The notes below the pieces were generated by a model. It was given only the letters and a program-made list of their open reading frames with translations, did not search any database and was not told where the DNA came from. 64,000 nucleotides of DNA from Clostridiales bacterium (lineage in GTDB: Bacteria; Bacillota; Clostridia; Lachnospirales; Lachnospiraceae), in NCBI GenBank assembly GCA_029007845.1, contig JAQXIP010000110.1:1-64000 (forward strand), read 5' to 3'. The first letter of the stretch is position 1, and the number at the start of each line of letters is the position of its first letter. Both the position numbers and the translations under genes were made by a program. Positions 3,858 to 19,043 of the stretch are shown here, one piece after another.

Positions 3858-5306
3858 ATGTTTGAGCAATTGGATGCACATGGGATATTTGAATATTTTC
3901 AGAAGATCAGTGAGATTCCAAGAGGTTCGGGTCATACTGGCCAGATCAGCCGTTATCTTGTGGAAACAGCTAAGAAAAAAGGATTTTGGGTGTGTCAGGA
4001 CGAAGTGGGCAATGTATTAATAAAAAAACCAGGATCAAAGGGCTGTGAGCATCTTCCTCCAGTTACCATTCAGGGGCATATGGATATGGTATGTGAGAAA
4101 AATAGTGATACGATCCATGATTTCTTAAACGAAGGATTAAAGCTTAAGCTTGAGGGAGATTTTATCTATGCCGAGGGTACAACACTTGGCGGGGATGATG
4201 GGATTGCGCTGGCATATGGTTTCGCATTACTGGATGAGGAAAATCTGGTGCATCCTCCCCTACAGATTTTGTTTACCGTAGATGAGGAAACCGGAATGGA
4301 CGGTGCATGGGCATTTGATGGATCACTTCTTGAGGGCACGGCATTTTTGAACCTGGATTCTGAAGAGGAAGGCATTTTTATTACAAGCTGTGCAGGAGGA
4401 CTTACCGGGATCCTTCACGTGCCGGTTGTTTATCAGGAGTGTTACGACAAACATCTTGTCTCTTTTTCGATCAGCGGTCTGAAAGGCGGTCATTCCGGTA
4501 CGGAAATTAATCAGAATCTGGCAAATGCCAATCAGCTCATGGGACGCTGCCTGTCTTTCTTACAGGAACATGCTTCCTTTTCCATTGTTAGCCTTGAGGG
4601 CGGATTAAAGGAAAATGCTATACCAAGAGAAGCATCTGCCATTCTTTCGGTAACCGATCTGGATTTATTTTTATCAGAAGCAGACCGGTTGAAACAGGAG
4701 CTTTTGGACGAATTAAGAGGATTTGAACCAGGACTTTCCATTACCGTTAAAACAATTACACCGGATAAAAAGAAAACAACAATGCTTACCAAAGAATCTG
4801 CGATGGATGTCATTGACCTTCTTCAATTTCTTCCAAATGGAGTTCGTTCTATGAGCAGCCACGTAGACGGTCTTGTTGAGACATCCCTTAATATCGGAAT
4901 TATCCGGCTTAATGAGAAAGAATTAACGGTAACTTGTTCGGTAAGAAGTTCTGTAGAACAGGCAAAGATGAATGTAAGCCGGATTTTAAAACGAATGGCT
5001 CATCGGTTTGAAGGTACCTATGAGATGCGGGGCAATTATCCGGGCTGGCCATATCGGGAACAATCAAGGCTTCGGGAGATCTGTGTTGAAACATATCAGG
5101 AGAAGTATGGGAAAGAACCGGTATTAGAAGCATTACATGCAGGTCTGGAATGTGGAATCCTGCTTGGCAAGAAACCGGAACTTGATATTGTTTCTATGGG
5201 ACCGGACATTTTTGATATCCATACTCCAAAAGAGCGGATGTCAATTTCTTCGGTAAACCGGGTATACGATTTTCTCTGTACCGTATTAGAAAAACTGACC
5301 CGTTAG
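3858..5306 (+). CDS. pepD: Aminoacyl-histidine dipeptidase (PepD/M20 family)
   Basis: QGHMDMVCEKN, DDGIALAYGFALLDEE, VDEETGMDGA metal-binding motifs; ATG at 3858 after ggcgg RBS. Confidence 0.9.
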   Translation: MFEQLDAHGIFEYFQKISEIPRGSGHTGQISRYLVETAKKKGFWVCQDEVGNVLIKKPGSKGCEHLPPVTIQGHMDMVCEKNSDTIHDFLNEGLKLKLEGDFIYAEGTTLGGDDGIALAYGFALLDEENLVHPPLQILFTVDEETGMDGAWAFDGSLLEGTAFLNLDSEEEGIFITSCAGGLTGILHVPVVYQECYDKHLVSFSISGLKGGHSGTEINQNLANANQLMGRCLSFLQEHASFSIVSLEGGLKENAIPREASAILSVTDLDLFLSEADRLKQELLDELRGFEPGLSITVKTITPDKKKTTMLTKESAMDVIDLLQFLPNGVRSMSSHVDGLVETSLNIGIIRLNEKELTVTCSVRSSVEQAKMNVSRILKRMAHRFEGTYEMRGNYPGWPYREQSRLREICVETYQEKYGKEPVLEALHAGLECGILLGKKPELDIVSMGPDIFDIHTPKERMSISSVNRVYDFLCTVLEKLTR

Positions 5307-5406
5307 AGGAATCTTGTCGGTTAAAAGTGGATGAAATTTATAAGAGATTGTGATAGAATAAAACTAGTTTTGTAAGGAAAATTTGAGAGCGGAAAGGAAA
5401 TTGATC

Positions 5407-6210
5407 ATGGAGATTCAGTTATGGAGAGAAATCCTGGATCCTTATGCATTGGCGGTAGAGGAATTAGTTGTTAAATTTAACCATATGATTACCGAATTTC
5501 GGAATGCGGGGGAATATTCCCCAATTGAACAGGTAAATGGACGGGTGAAGTCCATCTCCAGTATATTGGAAAAAACACAGAAAAAGAAAATTGATCTGGA
5601 AGATTTTGAAAACTACCTGGATGATATTGCGGGAATCCGTATCATATGCCAATTTGTAGAGGATATTGATAAAGTCGTGGAGCTTGTACGAGACCGGAAT
5701 GATATGGAAGTAGTCAGTGAAAAAGACTACATAAGCAATGCAAAGGCAAGTGGATACCGCAGTTATCATATGATTGTGAATTATACGGTGTATACCTACA
5801 AAGGTCCAAAAGCGTTGAAGGCAGAGATTCAGATTCGTACACTTGCCATGAATTTCTTGGCAACAATTGAACATTCCCTGCAATACAAATACAAAGATAA
5901 CATGCCGGAACATGTGCGGAAACGTCTGCTTAAGTCGGCGCAGGCAATTGTGGTATTAGATGATGAGATGTCAAAAGTCCGGGGAGAGATTATGGATGCC
6001 CAGAATTCCTTTAAACGTAAGGCAAATGTGGTAGCTGATATTCTGACAAATATCCAGAATCTTTACAAAGTGGCAAATAAACGGGAAGTCGTGAAAATTC
6101 AGGATGAATTTTTCCGAATCTACCAGATGGACGATTTATCACAGTTAGAGCGTTTTAATAAGGAACTGGATATGATATCAGAGGGATATCGCGCACAGAG
6201 CCTGTACTAA
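5407..6210 (+). CDS. GTP pyrophosphokinase, small alarmone synthetase (RelQ/YjbM-like)
   Basis: DIAGIRIICQFVEDI, SGYRSYHMIV, AEIQIRTLAMNFLATIEH RelA/SpoT synthetase motifs without HD domain. Confidence 0.92.
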   Translation: MEIQLWREILDPYALAVEELVVKFNHMITEFRNAGEYSPIEQVNGRVKSISSILEKTQKKKIDLEDFENYLDDIAGIRIICQFVEDIDKVVELVRDRNDMEVVSEKDYISNAKASGYRSYHMIVNYTVYTYKGPKALKAEIQIRTLAMNFLATIEHSLQYKYKDNMPEHVRKRLLKSAQAIVVLDDEMSKVRGEIMDAQNSFKRKANVVADILTNIQNLYKVANKREVVKIQDEFFRIYQMDDLSQLERFNKELDMISEGYRAQSLY

Positions 6211-12500: not shown

Positions 12501-12546
12501 ATATTAAAACTTTCCACATGGAGGAAGCTTTAGAGCAAAACCAGTA

Positions 12547-12577
12547 AAAGGGACTGCATATTGGGCAGTCCCTTTTT
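12547..12577 (+). terminator. Intrinsic terminator after recU
   Basis: AAAGGGACTGC-atattgg-GCAGTCCCTTTTT. Confidence 0.85.
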
Positions 12578-12614
12578 ACATTCATTTTACAAAAAACAGA
12601 TAACAGACTTTACA
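12575..12614 (+). promoter_or_regulatory. Candidate PhoB/PhoP box array upstream of pst
   Basis: TTTACA(12575) ttcat TTTACA(12586) with exact 11 bp period, and a further TTTACA at 12609, 70-110 bp upstream of pstS. Confidence 0.5.
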
Positions 12615-12684: not shown

Positions 12685-13626
12685 ATGAAAAAGAAAAGAA
12701 TAGCAACAATGATGTTAAGCGCAGTATTAGCAATTGGATGTCTGGCAGGCTGTGGTGGCGGTGCCCAGAATACAGCTTCTAATGCCACCGGAAATGCGGA
12801 CACAAAAAACAGTGGAACAGAAGTTACTTCTGACTTTGACAAGACGAGTCCTATTTCCGTTGTATCCAGAGAAGACGGATCCGGTACAAGAGGTGCTTTC
12901 GTTGAACTGTTTGGAATCGAGCAGAAAGATGGAGACGGAAATAAAATAGACTATACAACAGATGAAGCAATTGTAACAAACTCTACTTCCGTTATGATGA
13001 CAACGGTTGCGGGCGATGCAGCTGGAATCGGTTATGTTTCCCTTGGTTCACTGGATGATTCGGTAAAAGCTTTAAAAATTGACGGCGCAGAAGCAACTGT
13101 AGATAACATTAAGAGTGGTACATACAAAATCTCCCGTCCGTTCAACATTGTAACAAAAGGGGAAGTAAGCGATGTTGCACAGGATTTCATTGATTACATT
13201 ATGAGTGCGGATGGTCAGGCAGTGATTGAAGAGAATGGTTATATTTCTGTATCAGATGCACCGGCTTATAGCGGCAGCAAACCATCTGGAAAAATTGTTG
13301 TTGCCGGTTCTTCTTCTGTTACACCAGTAATGGAAAAATTAAAAGAAGCATATCTTGCAGTTAATACGAATGCAGACATTGAAGTACAGGAAAGTGATTC
13401 TACCACAGGTGTTACTTCTACCATTGATGGAATCTGTGATATTGGTATGGCATCCCGTGATCTTGCAGACAGTGAGAGCGCAGAAGGAATTACCGCAAAG
13501 GCAATCGCACTGGATGGAATTGCAGTAGTCGTAAATAAAGAAAATCCGTTAGAAAATATCACAAAAGATGACGTTATGAAGATTTACATGGGTGATATCA
13601 CAACATGGGATGAGGTTTCCGAATAA
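12685..13626 (+). CDS. pstS: Phosphate ABC transporter substrate-binding lipoprotein, circularly permuted PstS-like
   Basis: Lipobox LAIGCLAGC; PstS C-terminal half (VVSREDGSGTRGAF..GYISV) precedes the N-terminal half (GSSSVTPVMEKL..ITTWDEV). Confidence 0.88.
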   Translation: MKKKRIATMMLSAVLAIGCLAGCGGGAQNTASNATGNADTKNSGTEVTSDFDKTSPISVVSREDGSGTRGAFVELFGIEQKDGDGNKIDYTTDEAIVTNSTSVMMTTVAGDAAGIGYVSLGSLDDSVKALKIDGAEATVDNIKSGTYKISRPFNIVTKGEVSDVAQDFIDYIMSADGQAVIEENGYISVSDAPAYSGSKPSGKIVVAGSSSVTPVMEKLKEAYLAVNTNADIEVQESDSTTGVTSTIDGICDIGMASRDLADSESAEGITAKAIALDGIAVVVNKENPLENITKDDVMKIYMGDITTWDEVSE

Positions 13627-13655: not shown

Positions 13656-14504
13656 ATGAAAAAACACAAAGAAAAGATAATGGAATGTGTATTCATGTTT
13701 TCTGCCTGTATCTCTATCCTGGCTGTTCTCCTGATCTGTGTGTTTCTTTTTGTAAATGGCGTACCGGCCATGAAGGAAATTGGATTTGGAAAATTTCTGA
13801 CCGGTCAGATGTGGCGGCCAAAAAATGATATCTATGGAATTCTTCCAATGATTATCGGAAGCATTTATGTCACCGGAGGAGCTATCCTGATTGGTGTGCC
13901 AGTTGGAATTCTGACAGCGATCTTTCTGGCAAAATTTTGTCCGAAAGGACTCTACAAAATCATTAAGCCAGCAGTAGATCTGCTGGCAGGAATTCCTTCT
14001 GTTGTATACGGATTCTTTGGTCTGGTCGTGATTGTTCCTTTCGTACGGGAACACTTTCAGGGAAATGGACAAAGCATACTGACTGCCTCTATCTTACTTG
14101 GAATCATGATTCTCCCTACCATAATCGGTGTGTCAGAATCAGCTATTCAAGCGGTTCCACAGTTTTATTATGAAGGTGCCCTTGCACTTGGCGCAACGCA
14201 TGAAAGAAGCGTGTTTCTGGCTATGCTGCCGGCTGCAAAATCTGGTATCTTCGCAGCCGTTGTGCTAGGAGTAGGACGCGCAATCGGAGAAACGATGGCA
14301 GTGATTATGGTAGCTGGTAACCAGCCACGAATACCAGACAGCATTTATAAAGGAGTCCGTACATTGACAGCTAATATCGTTTTGGAAATGGGATACGCCA
14401 CAGATTTACACCGGGAAGCACTGATTGCCACCGGAGTGGTACTCTTTGTATTTATCTTGTTAATTAATACCGCATTTTCTCTGTTAAAACGAAAGGAGGG
14501 TTAA
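13656..14504 (+). CDS. pstC: Phosphate ABC transporter permease PstC
   Basis: GIPSVVYGFFGLVVIVPF and GRAIGETMAVIMVAGN motifs; pst gene order. Confidence 0.93.
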   Translation: MKKHKEKIMECVFMFSACISILAVLLICVFLFVNGVPAMKEIGFGKFLTGQMWRPKNDIYGILPMIIGSIYVTGGAILIGVPVGILTAIFLAKFCPKGLYKIIKPAVDLLAGIPSVVYGFFGLVVIVPFVREHFQGNGQSILTASILLGIMILPTIIGVSESAIQAVPQFYYEGALALGATHERSVFLAMLPAAKSGIFAAVVLGVGRAIGETMAVIMVAGNQPRIPDSIYKGVRTLTANIVLEMGYATDLHREALIATGVVLFVFILLINTAFSLLKRKEG

Positions 14505-14510
14505 GGGACG

Positions 14511-15389
14511 ATGGATATGATAAACCGTGTGACTTTTTCGCAGAAAGTGAAAACCTATTTAAAACATCCCGGATCCCTTCTTTTATGGATTTTAGTAGCG
14601 TTTTCAGCAGTGGTTACTGTTGGAGCACTTGGCTTTATTATAGTTTATATCTTAGTCCATGGGGTGCCGTATCTCTCTCCTTCCTTATTTGCACCAAAAT
14701 ATACAACCGAAAATGTCTCAATGCTTCCGGCAATTATAACAACGCTGGAAATGACAGTTTTAGCACTGATTTTTGCGGTGCCCCTTGGAGTTTTTTCTGC
14801 AATCTATACAGTGGAATATGCCAAAAAAGGAAATAAGCTGGTAGCCATTGTCCGTCTTACGGCTGAAACTCTTACCGGAATTCCTTCCATCGTATATGGA
14901 TTGTTTGGCCTGTTATTCTTTGTAGGTACACTGAAAATGGGAATGTCATTGATTGCAGGTGCATTGACTCTGGCAATCATGGTACTTCCGGTTGTTATGC
15001 GTACAACGGAGGAGGCATTGCTTTCCATTCCAGACTCATACCGGGAAGGAAGCTTTGGCCTTGGTGCAGGAAGACTTCGTACGGTATTCTGCATTGTTCT
15101 GCCACCGGCCATGCCTGGTATCCTTTCCGGAATCATTCTGGCAATCGGCAGAATTGTAGGAGAAACCGCAGCGTTAATGTATACTTCCGGAACGGTAGCA
15201 GAAGTTCCTAAGAATATTTTTTCCTCCGGACGGACGCTGGCAATCCACATGTACTGTCTGTCAAGAGAAGGTTTATATACCGATCAGGCCTATGCCACAG
15301 CAGTTGTTCTGCTTCTTATGGTAATCCTGATTAACTTCCTGTCAGGCTTGATTGCAAAGAAAATCGGAAAGAATGGAGAAAAGAAATGA
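14511..15389 (+). CDS. pstA: Phosphate ABC transporter permease PstA
   Basis: [15 protein letters not shown] and [15 protein letters not shown]; pst gene order. Confidence 0.93.
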
Positions 15390-16139
15390 AAGATAAATTT
15401 CAGGTAAAAAATTTGGATCTCTATTATGGAGATTTCAAAGCGCTAAAAGATATTAATCTGAATTTGAAGGCAAACGAGATTACCGCATTTATCGGTCCGA
15501 GTGGATGCGGTAAATCCACCTTTTTAAAGTCGTTAAACCGGATGAATGATCTGGTTGAAGGGTGCCGGATTACAGGTGAAGTAACATTGGACGGAGAAGA
15601 CATTTATGGAAATATGGATGTCAATCTTCTTCGTAAACGGGTTGGCATGGTGTTCCAGAAACCAAACCCATTTCCAATGAGCATTTATGACAACATTGCA
15701 TTTGGACCAAGAACCCATGGTGTTCATTCAAAAGCAAAATTGGACGAGATTGTAGAGACTTCTTTGAAAAATGCAGCAATCTGGGATGAATTAAAGGATC
15801 GTTTAAAAAAGAGTGCGCTTGGATTATCCGGCGGCCAGCAGCAGCGTCTGTGTATTGCCCGTGCCCTTGCGGTACAGCCGGAAGTAATTCTGATGGATGA
15901 GCCGACCTCTGCCTTAGACCCAATCTCTACTACCAAAATTGAGGATCTCGTTTTAGAATTAAAAAAAAGATTATACCATTATTATGGTTACCCACAATAT
16001 GCAGCAGGCAACCCGTATATCCGATAAAACAGCATTTTTCCTTCTCGGTGAAGTCATTGAGTATGGAGATACTGCCCAGATGTTTTCCATGCCTGCGGAT
16101 AAACGGACAGAGGATTATATTACAGGCCGGTTTGGCTGA
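15386..16139 (+). pseudogene. pstB: Phosphate ABC transporter ATP-binding protein PstB with a +1 nt frameshift in an A8 tract
   Basis: [25 protein letters not shown] and EPTSALDP in frame 1; [44 protein letters not shown] continues in another frame after 15961-15968 (A8). Confidence 0.9.
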
Positions 16140-16173: not shown

Positions 16174-16821
16174 ATGCGTAACCGATTTGACCGTCAGTTA
16201 GAAGAACTGAATAATGAACTGATTACTATGGGAAGCCTGATTGAGCAGGAGATTGAGATGGCTGTTTCCGCTCTGGTAAGACAGGATGCCATAAAAGCCC
16301 AGGAAGCGATTGATTTTGATGAAGAAATCGACCATCAGGAAAAAAATATTGAAAATCTCTGTCTGAAGCTTTTACTTCAGCAGCAGCCGGTAGCAAGAGA
16401 TTTACGCCAGATCTCTTCTGCATTAAAAATGATTACCGATATGGAGCGGATTGGGGATCATGGAGCAGACATCTCAGAGATTACCCTTATGATGAAGGGA
16501 AAACCATATATCAAGAAGCTTGAGCATATTCAGGAGATGGCAAAAGAGACTACCATGATGGTAATCAATTCCGTAGATGCTTATGTGAATAAAGACGTAG
16601 GACTTGCGAAAAAGGTAATTGAACGGGATGACGTAGTAGATGACCTTTTTGATGAGATCAAAGAAGAACTCATAAGACTCATATCCGAAAATGCCAATAA
16701 TGGAGAGCAGGCTGCAGACTTATTAATGGTGGCAAAATACTTCGAGCGGATCGGGGATCATGCGACCAATATTGCAGAATGGGTTATCTTTTCCATTACT
16801 GGAAAGCATGAAGATGATTAA
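16174..16821 (+). CDS. phoU: Phosphate transport system regulator PhoU
   Basis: Two repeats with ADLLMVAKYFERIGDHATNIAEW and DMERIGDHGADISE. Confidence 0.93.
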   Translation: MRNRFDRQLEELNNELITMGSLIEQEIEMAVSALVRQDAIKAQEAIDFDEEIDHQEKNIENLCLKLLLQQQPVARDLRQISSALKMITDMERIGDHGADISEITLMMKGKPYIKKLEHIQEMAKETTMMVINSVDAYVNKDVGLAKKVIERDDVVDDLFDEIKEELIRLISENANNGEQAADLLMVAKYFERIGDHATNIAEWVIFSITGKHEDD

Positions 16822-17019: not shown

Positions 17020-17055
17020 TTTATATATTTAAAACATGTAGGAGAAATGAATGTT

Positions 17056-17727
17056 ATGGCTAACATTTATGTTGTAGAAGATGACGAAAATATCCGGGAG
17101 ATTGAGTGTTTTGCATTAAAGAATTCGGGACATGAAGTTTCTGGGATGGTAAATGCAGCCCAGTTCGATGCTGCCCTGAAAAAAGGCATTCCAGACCTGA
17201 TTATACTGGACATTATGCTTCCAGATAAGGATGGACTTACAATATTAAAAGAACTGCGGGAGAATGAATCTACCAGAAAGATTCCGATTATTATGGTAAC
17301 CGCCAAAACAACAGAGCTTGATAAGGTAAAGGGGCTTGATATGGGAGCCGACGATTACCTTTCCAAGCCTTTTGGCGTTATGGAGCTCATTTCAAGGGTG
17401 AAAGCCCTGCTTCGACGAAGCGGACGTCTGGAAAATGACAGCTGTCTGAAAGCAGGCCAGATTCAACTGGATCTGAAGAAGCATTTAGTTATGGTCGGGA
17501 CACAGACCTGTGAGCTGACTTATAAAGAATATGAACTGTTAAAATTATTCATGGAAAACCAGGGGACGGTTCTTACAAGAGAACTTCTTATGGACCGGAT
17601 CTGGGGAACGGATTACATCGGAGAATCCAGAACGCTGGATATGCATATTAAGACTTTGAGACAAAAACTGAAGGAAGAATCTTCCCGCATTAAGACTGTT
17701 CGGAATGTGGGATACAAAATGGAGTAA
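17056..17727 (+). CDS. PhoB/PhoP-type OmpR-family response regulator
   Basis: Receiver domain VEDDENIRE..DIMLPD and winged-helix C-terminus; adjacent to PhoR-like kinase and pst. Confidence 0.9.
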   Translation: MANIYVVEDDENIREIECFALKNSGHEVSGMVNAAQFDAALKKGIPDLIILDIMLPDKDGLTILKELRENESTRKIPIIMVTAKTTELDKVKGLDMGADDYLSKPFGVMELISRVKALLRRSGRLENDSCLKAGQIQLDLKKHLVMVGTQTCELTYKEYELLKLFMENQGTVLTRELLMDRIWGTDYIGESRTLDMHIKTLRQKLKEESSRIKTVRNVGYKME

Positions 17728-17735
17728 ATAAACAC

Positions 17736-19043
17736 ATGAAAAAAAGGATTAACTTTCAGGTATTGATGATATCGGCACTGGCTGTATTATTCACAGTACT
17801 ACTTACCTCAGGGGTTTTCTATGAGGTTTTTGAGCAGGAAGTAATGAACAATCTGAAGACCTATGCGGATATTTTAATGGAGAACGGAAACCGTCAGCAG
17901 ATTGACGGCATAAGAATCACGGTTGTGTCGGAAGACGGAACCGTGATTTATGATTCTGATGCAGACATTCTTAAGATGGGGAATCATCTGAAACGTCCGG
18001 AAATCTCACAAGCGCTAAAGAAAGGAAGCGGAACGGCAAAACGTCACTCCCAGACACTTGATAAAATGACCTTTTACTATGCCATAAAACAGTCAGATGG
18101 AACGGTGCTTCGGGTGGCAAAAGAAGCAGGAAGCCTGTACAGCCTGATGAAACGGGCAGTTCCTTATATTTGTTTTGTCGTAATCTGGGTTTTTGTATTG
18201 TCGGCATTCTGTTCCCATGTTCTGACCAAAAAACTAGTGGCACCAATCGAAGAAGTTGCGAATAACATGGAGCATTGTGAGTCGGTTTCGGTGTATAAAG
18301 AGCTGAAACCGATTGTGGCAACGATTCAGAACCAGCATGAATCTATAATCCGCAACGCAACAATGCGTCAGGATTTCACTGCAAATGTATCTCACGAATT
18401 AAAGACGCCTCTTACTGCCATATCCGGATACGCAGAGTTAATTGAAAGTGGTATGACCGATCAGGAGGAGACCGCCCGTTTTGCCGGAGAGATTCATCAG
18501 AATTCAAAGCGTCTCCTCACCTTGATTAATGATATTATCCGCTTGTCCGAATTAGACAGCATGGATTCCGGCGTGGTGATGGAAGAACTGGATTTGTACC
18601 AGATCGCAGAGAATTGTGTGGAGATGCTCAAAGTAAATGCCCAGAAAAACAATGTATCAATCGGACTGTCCGGAAGCAGCCAGAAAATCATTGCAAATAA
18701 AGAAATGATGAACGAGTTGTTGTATAATCTGTGTGACAACGCAATTCGGTACAATGTATCTGGTGGAAATGTATTTGTTTCAGTAACCGGTGATGCAAAG
18801 AAAGTCGTATTGACTGTATCCGACACGGGAATCGGTATCTCGCCAGAAAACCAGAAACGGGTATTTGAACGTTTTTACCGGGTGGATAAAAGCCGTTCCA
18901 AGAAAACCGGAGGCACCGGTCTTGGTCTTGCCATTGTCAAACATGTGCTTGTCCAGCACCCAAACAGCAGTCTGAATCTGGAGAGTGAAGTGGGCAAAGG
19001 AACAAAAATGCAAGTCACGTTTTTAAGAGAAGAGAAAAAATAA
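17736..19043 (+). CDS. PhoR-type sensor histidine kinase
   Basis: DFTANVSHELKTPLTAISGYAELIESG H-box, NLCDNAIRYN N-box, GTGLGLAIVKH G-box. Confidence 0.92.
   Translation: MKKRINFQVLMISALAVLFTVLLTSGVFYEVFEQEVMNNLKTYADILMENGNRQQIDGIRITVVSEDGTVIYDSDADILKMGNHLKRPEISQALKKGSGTAKRHSQTLDKMTFYYAIKQSDGTVLRVAKEAGSLYSLMKRAVPYICFVVIWVFVLSAFCSHVLTKKLVAPIEEVANNMEHCESVSVYKELKPIVATIQNQHESIIRNATMRQDFTANVSHELKTPLTAISGYAELIESGMTDQEETARFAGEIHQNSKRLLTLINDIIRLSELDSMDSGVVMEELDLYQIAENCVEMLKVNAQKNNVSIGLSGSSQKIIANKEMMNELLYNLCDNAIRYNVSGGNVFVSVTGDAKKVVLTVSDTGIGISPENQKRVFERFYRVDKSRSKKTGGTGLGLAIVKHVLVQHPNSSLNLESEVGKGTKMQVTFLREEKK

Follow-up and report, generated by a model that had tools for sequence, protein, structure and literature searches.

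Does the pstS gene of this locus encode a phosphate-binding protein whose two halves stand in reversed order, and is such a protein a peculiarity of one genome or a working part of a phosphate transporter? The initial annotation of the window, a 64,000-nucleotide stretch of contig JAQXIP010000110.1 from a Clostridiales bacterium (Lachnospiraceae), read the gene as a circular permutant of PstS with a linker between the halves. The open reading frame, which begins with ATG, matches Pfam PF12849 (PBP_like_2) in two stretches of reversed order: residues 195-310 correspond to profile positions 3-125, and residues ~54-175, with the first half searched alone, to positions 130-266. When the protein is searched against the PDB with phmmer, the canonical structures 4q8r, 4gd5 and 1twy each align as two swapped stretches, and 4h1x aligns as a single colinear stretch (54-311 with 8-264, E 3.4e-64). 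The colinear N-C order of canonical PstS is not found in the window protein. Its halves come out swapped when aligned separately to canonical PstS, and the linker is present as described (Table 1). The phosphate-binding loop REDGSGTR lies in the canonical C-terminal half, which now comes first, and the GSSSVTP, DSTTG and SR binding motifs lie in the canonical N-terminal half. The window PstS is a true circular permutation. We put the probability that it is also a functional, naturally permuted PstS at about 0.92.

Table 1. Features of the permuted pstS gene and its operon in the window.
Feature	Position	Strand	Basis or remarks
Pho box, TTTACATTCATTTTACA	12575..12591	+	exact TTTACA-N5-TTTACA
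permuted pstS, 313 aa lipoprotein	12685..13626	+	ORF, Pfam, PDB search, model
lipobox LAGC, residues 20-23	12742..12753	+	sequence
canonical C-terminal half, now first, residues 56-189	12850..13251	+	Pfam profile 130-266; 4gd5/4q8r alignments
linker joining old C and N termini, residues 190-203, SDAPAYSGSKPSGK	13252..13293	+	sequence
canonical N-terminal half, now second, residues 204-313	13294..13623	+	Pfam profile 3-125; residue conservation
pstC	13656..14504	+	TIGR02138, 304 bits, above cut-off
pstA	14511..15389	+	TIGR00974, 268 bits, above cut-off
pstB, frameshifted	15386..16139	+	frame 1 ends 16027, remainder in another frame to 16139
phoU	16174..16821	+	TIGR02135, 213 bits, above cut-off
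PhoB/PhoR (PnpR/PnpS)-like two-component system	17047..19043	+	top NCBIfam matches PhoB, PnpS, both below curated cut-offs

The reversed order also affects how the protein is scored. The PF12849 match, at 126.8 bits, is above the curated cut-off of 27, but the TIGR02136 match, at 190.1 bits, falls below its cut-off of 206.6, because the swapped order splits the linear profile over two stretches. Linear family models therefore undercall permuted proteins, even a clear PstS such as this one.

An AlphaFold2 model built from 30 orthologues is confident over the body of the protein (227 residues with pLDDT >= 90), with residues 1-48 disordered (pLDDT <50). Its top PDB match by Foldseek is again 4h1x, which aligns colinearly across 259 columns (E 1.2e-34, 45% identity), whereas just 132 columns align with canonical 4gd5, so that superposition on PstS structures agrees with the permuted order. 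The two-lobed type 2 binding protein fold would be kept, with phosphate enclosed in the interlobe cleft and then handed to PstC/PstA.

The cut site maps to a three-residue loop at 113/117 of 4q8r. In canonical PstS the N-terminal domain (NTD) is made of N- and C-terminal segments and the C-terminal domain (CTD) is continuous; in CpPstS these are residues 24-111 plus 279-324 and residues 112-278, respectively (PMC12421899). The secondary structure of the model has a long crossing strand at residues 269-283 and the other crossing strand at 150-158. By this topology, the cut would fall about 30 residues past the long crossing strand, inside the formerly continuous lobe; the former CTD would carry the new termini and the former NTD the linker. 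The interlobe hinge, where the new termini had been placed in the initial annotation, does not appear to be their site. Permutation would have made the formerly split lobe continuous, with the linker bridging its old ends, and would have split the formerly continuous lobe. With lobe continuity swapped, the lipid anchor would sit on the opposite lobe from the one anchored in canonical lipoprotein PstS.

The same arrangement recurs far beyond the window. A scan of genome contigs gave at least 527 matches, of which 80 were kept; these come from Lachnospiraceae, other Clostridia, Acidaminococcaceae, Streptococcus and Adlercreutzia. Sorting by separate half-profiles yielded 137 permuted and 36 canonical ORFs, some loci repeating the same gene, and among these 173 ORFs there was no mixed or triplicated arrangement and no duplication intermediate (N-C-N or C-N-C chain). 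All 137 permuted ORFs keep one break point, the linker is 13-14 residues long in 132 of them, the window protein included, and the chain ends differ by no more than a few residues, so order and linker are both conserved among orthologues. Counted as full-length colinear matches, permuted PstS is present in 58 of the 293 genomes surveyed from the same class, about 60 of 200 of the family, 8 of 250 of the wider phylum and 6 of 198 of the Adlercreutzia phylum; many other genomes in these surveys carry canonical PstS. A viral contig scan found no phage-borne copies of the permuted form. The window gene is not the singular permutant that it had been taken for but one of a widespread clade in which one structure, 4H1X, has been solved. 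The reversal is ancient and common to hundreds of gut and oral bacteria.

In a few pst loci permuted PstS is encoded twice, by genes that lie in tandem or flank the operon (L090:319-2327, L096:4836-6763, L271:5876-7794 and L200:3734-11274). Tandem permuted copies occur in L090 and L096, and no hybrids were seen.

How often did the permutation arise? On a tree of both halves the permuted proteins form one clade (support 100/98), as do the 50 permuted rows, 4H1X among them, on a tree that includes PDB rows (100/97). Reconstruction gives one change on every tree in 100% of bootstraps, on unrooted trees whose canonical rows had been selected for their similarity to the permuted query. With all permuted proteins in one clade, a single permutation of an ancestral pstS is the simplest account that the sequences suggest. 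The canonical order is the more widely spread of the two and is for that reason taken as ancestral. The simplest route from it would be a tandem duplication followed by in-frame fusion and trimming. The halves might instead stem from different PstS genes, brought together by recombination or half-gene fusion, and the single-half trees are poorly resolved and name no sister lineage. Yet each half alone groups all permuted against all canonical proteins (support 98 and 93), and the cut lies in the 113/117 loop of 4q8r, as permutation by duplication predicts, which makes a mixed parentage unlikely.

Several lines of evidence point to phosphate uptake as the role of the permuted protein. The ligand positions R62, S66, G67, T68, S209, S211, S239, S257 and R258 are invariant in 50 permuted rows, and the R, SGT, S-x-S, S and SR phosphate-binding positions are nearly invariant in 33 canonical rows; from these residues, the window PstS is predicted to bind phosphate. 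The gene heads an operon in the order pstS-pstC-pstA-pstB-phoU, as first described, although pstB is frameshifted in the assembly. Among named loci, pstC lies downstream of permuted pstS in 80 of 80, mostly within a full pstCAB-phoU set and often with a two-component system too. The candidate Pho box of the initial annotation is an exact match 94 bp before the pstS start codon, the only one in the window, and a box with 0-1 mismatch precedes 77 of 136 permuted pstS genes, where shuffled sequence gives an expectation of about 1. The pneumococcal Pho box has the same form, TTTACA-N5-TTTACA (PMC4913102). Taken together, invariant binding residues, Pho box and operon position support the proposal that this is the working PstS of its operon, controlled through the Pho box.

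By eye, a terminator-like inverted repeat of the upstream gene (gggactgc...gcagtccc plus a T-run) leads straight into the Pho box, within 12540-12591. The pstB frameshift occurs at an A8 run (15961-15968), with the remaining 56 residues read in another frame. There is no second pstB in the window genome, and unless the indel is an error the operon would not work in its assembled form; a sequencing or assembly indel is most likely.

The solved member of the clade provides the closest link to physiology. 4H1X, released in 2012, is SP_2084 of Streptococcus pneumoniae, named PstS2 in the PDB and PstS of Pst1 in Zheng et al. 2016; comparative genomics also assigns it as PstS of Pst1, next to PnpR/S (PMC6722419). 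Like the window PstS, it is permuted, falls in the same clade, heads a Pho-regulated pstCAB-phoU operon and is colinear with the window protein over the whole mature chain. It differs in being a deep branch of the clade, at about 45-50% identity, and in having its two-component genes upstream of the operon rather than downstream. Pneumococcal Pst1 is up ~200-fold at 10 uM phosphate; without it, initial uptake after starvation runs at half the rate, and full uptake after starvation requires it (PMC4913102). Because SP_2084 belongs to Pst1, with its role in low-phosphate uptake, a relative that shares the permuted order serves in a working transporter. A shift of the window PstS to another ligand or to sensing would have a parallel in side branches outside the pst operon (the NptA-linked copies described below). 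It is nevertheless very unlikely for a gene with invariant phosphate residues, a Pho box, a place in a pst operon and a pneumococcal relative that serves phosphate uptake (PMC4913102). No paper calling any PstS permuted, SP_2084 included, was found in open-access text, and the window PstS is a member of an existing, apparently little-noticed permuted family.

The partner subunits follow the same division. Canonical short PstS proteins (C. perfringens 4Q8R/4GD5 and V. cholerae 1TWY) have homologous halves, the same motifs and the same operon role, but their order is N-C where that of the window PstS is C-N, and they belong with another PstC/PstA lineage. PstC/PstA encoded beside permuted PstS form their own clade (support 100, stem 0.83 changes per site), with one change in 69 operons, and permuted PstS was never mixed with PstC/PstA of canonical operons. 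Co-adaptation of the interface explains this separate clade as well as plain co-inheritance of the operon does. The altered interface with PstCA proposed in the initial annotation is compatible with the separate subunit clade, and PstC/PstA may have diverged along with permuted PstS as one lineage. The two Pst lineages, each with its own PstC/PstA, offer a clean natural experiment in which the docking of a binding protein on its channel can be compared, as can the effect of anchoring one lobe or the other. The patchy spread of permuted forms across Clostridia, Negativicutes, Streptococcus and some Actinomycetota could be the product of several independent permutations at a favoured site; such repetition is most improbable, given the one change per tree in 100% of bootstraps and a single clade of partner subunits, which fits one origin plus operon transfer.

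A local rearrangement, chimeric assembly or pseudogene confined to the window genome, a fragmented draft (115 contigs, 88% complete) with a frameshifted pstB beside the gene, has a negligible chance and is ruled out as misassembly by 137 ORFs with one break point and the same linker length from many independent assemblies, isolates and one complete chromosome among them, and by a crystallised protein (4H1X) of the same order.

A natural circular permutant is also known among other lipid-anchored ABC binding proteins: TpMglB-2 (Tp0684) of Treponema pallidum (PMC4990184). TpMglB-2 still binds ligand and closes, its kind is type I and sugar-binding and occurs in treponemes and Gram-positives, and membrane tethering has been proposed as the driver of its permutation (PMC4990184). 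It differs from the window PstS in fold (type I), ligand (sugar) and cut site and belongs to a separate family; the PBP_like_2 match and the type 2 fold of 4H1X place the window PstS outside Cluster Bc / Type Ic, which holds TpMglB-2. Two independent permutations in lipid-anchored binding proteins make the tethering hypothesis testable.

One branch of the permuted family is found without an ABC transporter of its own. The window genome encodes a second permuted PstS (41% identity) with no pst genes beside it, at locus L174:1938-7561 (G000 contig C16:16437-22060; gene at 4960-5844), where the gene order is polyphosphate kinase 1, CorA, permuted PstS and a Na/Pi cotransporter with a PhoU tail (NptA). 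The PstS-NptA adjacency recurs in five more genomes (L266, L267, L268, L269 and L092), and polyphosphate kinase 1 is near the pair in three of the six (the window genome, L268 and L092). These loci were fetched by similarity of PstS, not of its neighbours. None of the six copies comes with its own pstCAB; the L092 pair is followed by a separate pst operon. On the tree the six cluster together with modest support (85/48), and they have largely kept their phosphate motifs. A search of titles and abstracts found no papers on a PstS-NptA-polyphosphate kinase pairing. It is possible, although we hold it only tentatively, that this branch left the ABC transporter to work with a secondary one, as a Na/Pi symporter that is assisted by a binding protein and coupled to the storage of polyphosphate, in which PstS may deliver phosphate to the symporter or gate it. 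If so, a lipoprotein supplying a secondary transporter with phosphate, or sensing phosphate on its behalf, would be new.

A further divergent permuted PstS-like ORF (L270:7487-8164) sits at a distance from pstC, with the pst operon on one side and a two-component system on the other, and has a long branch in the tree.
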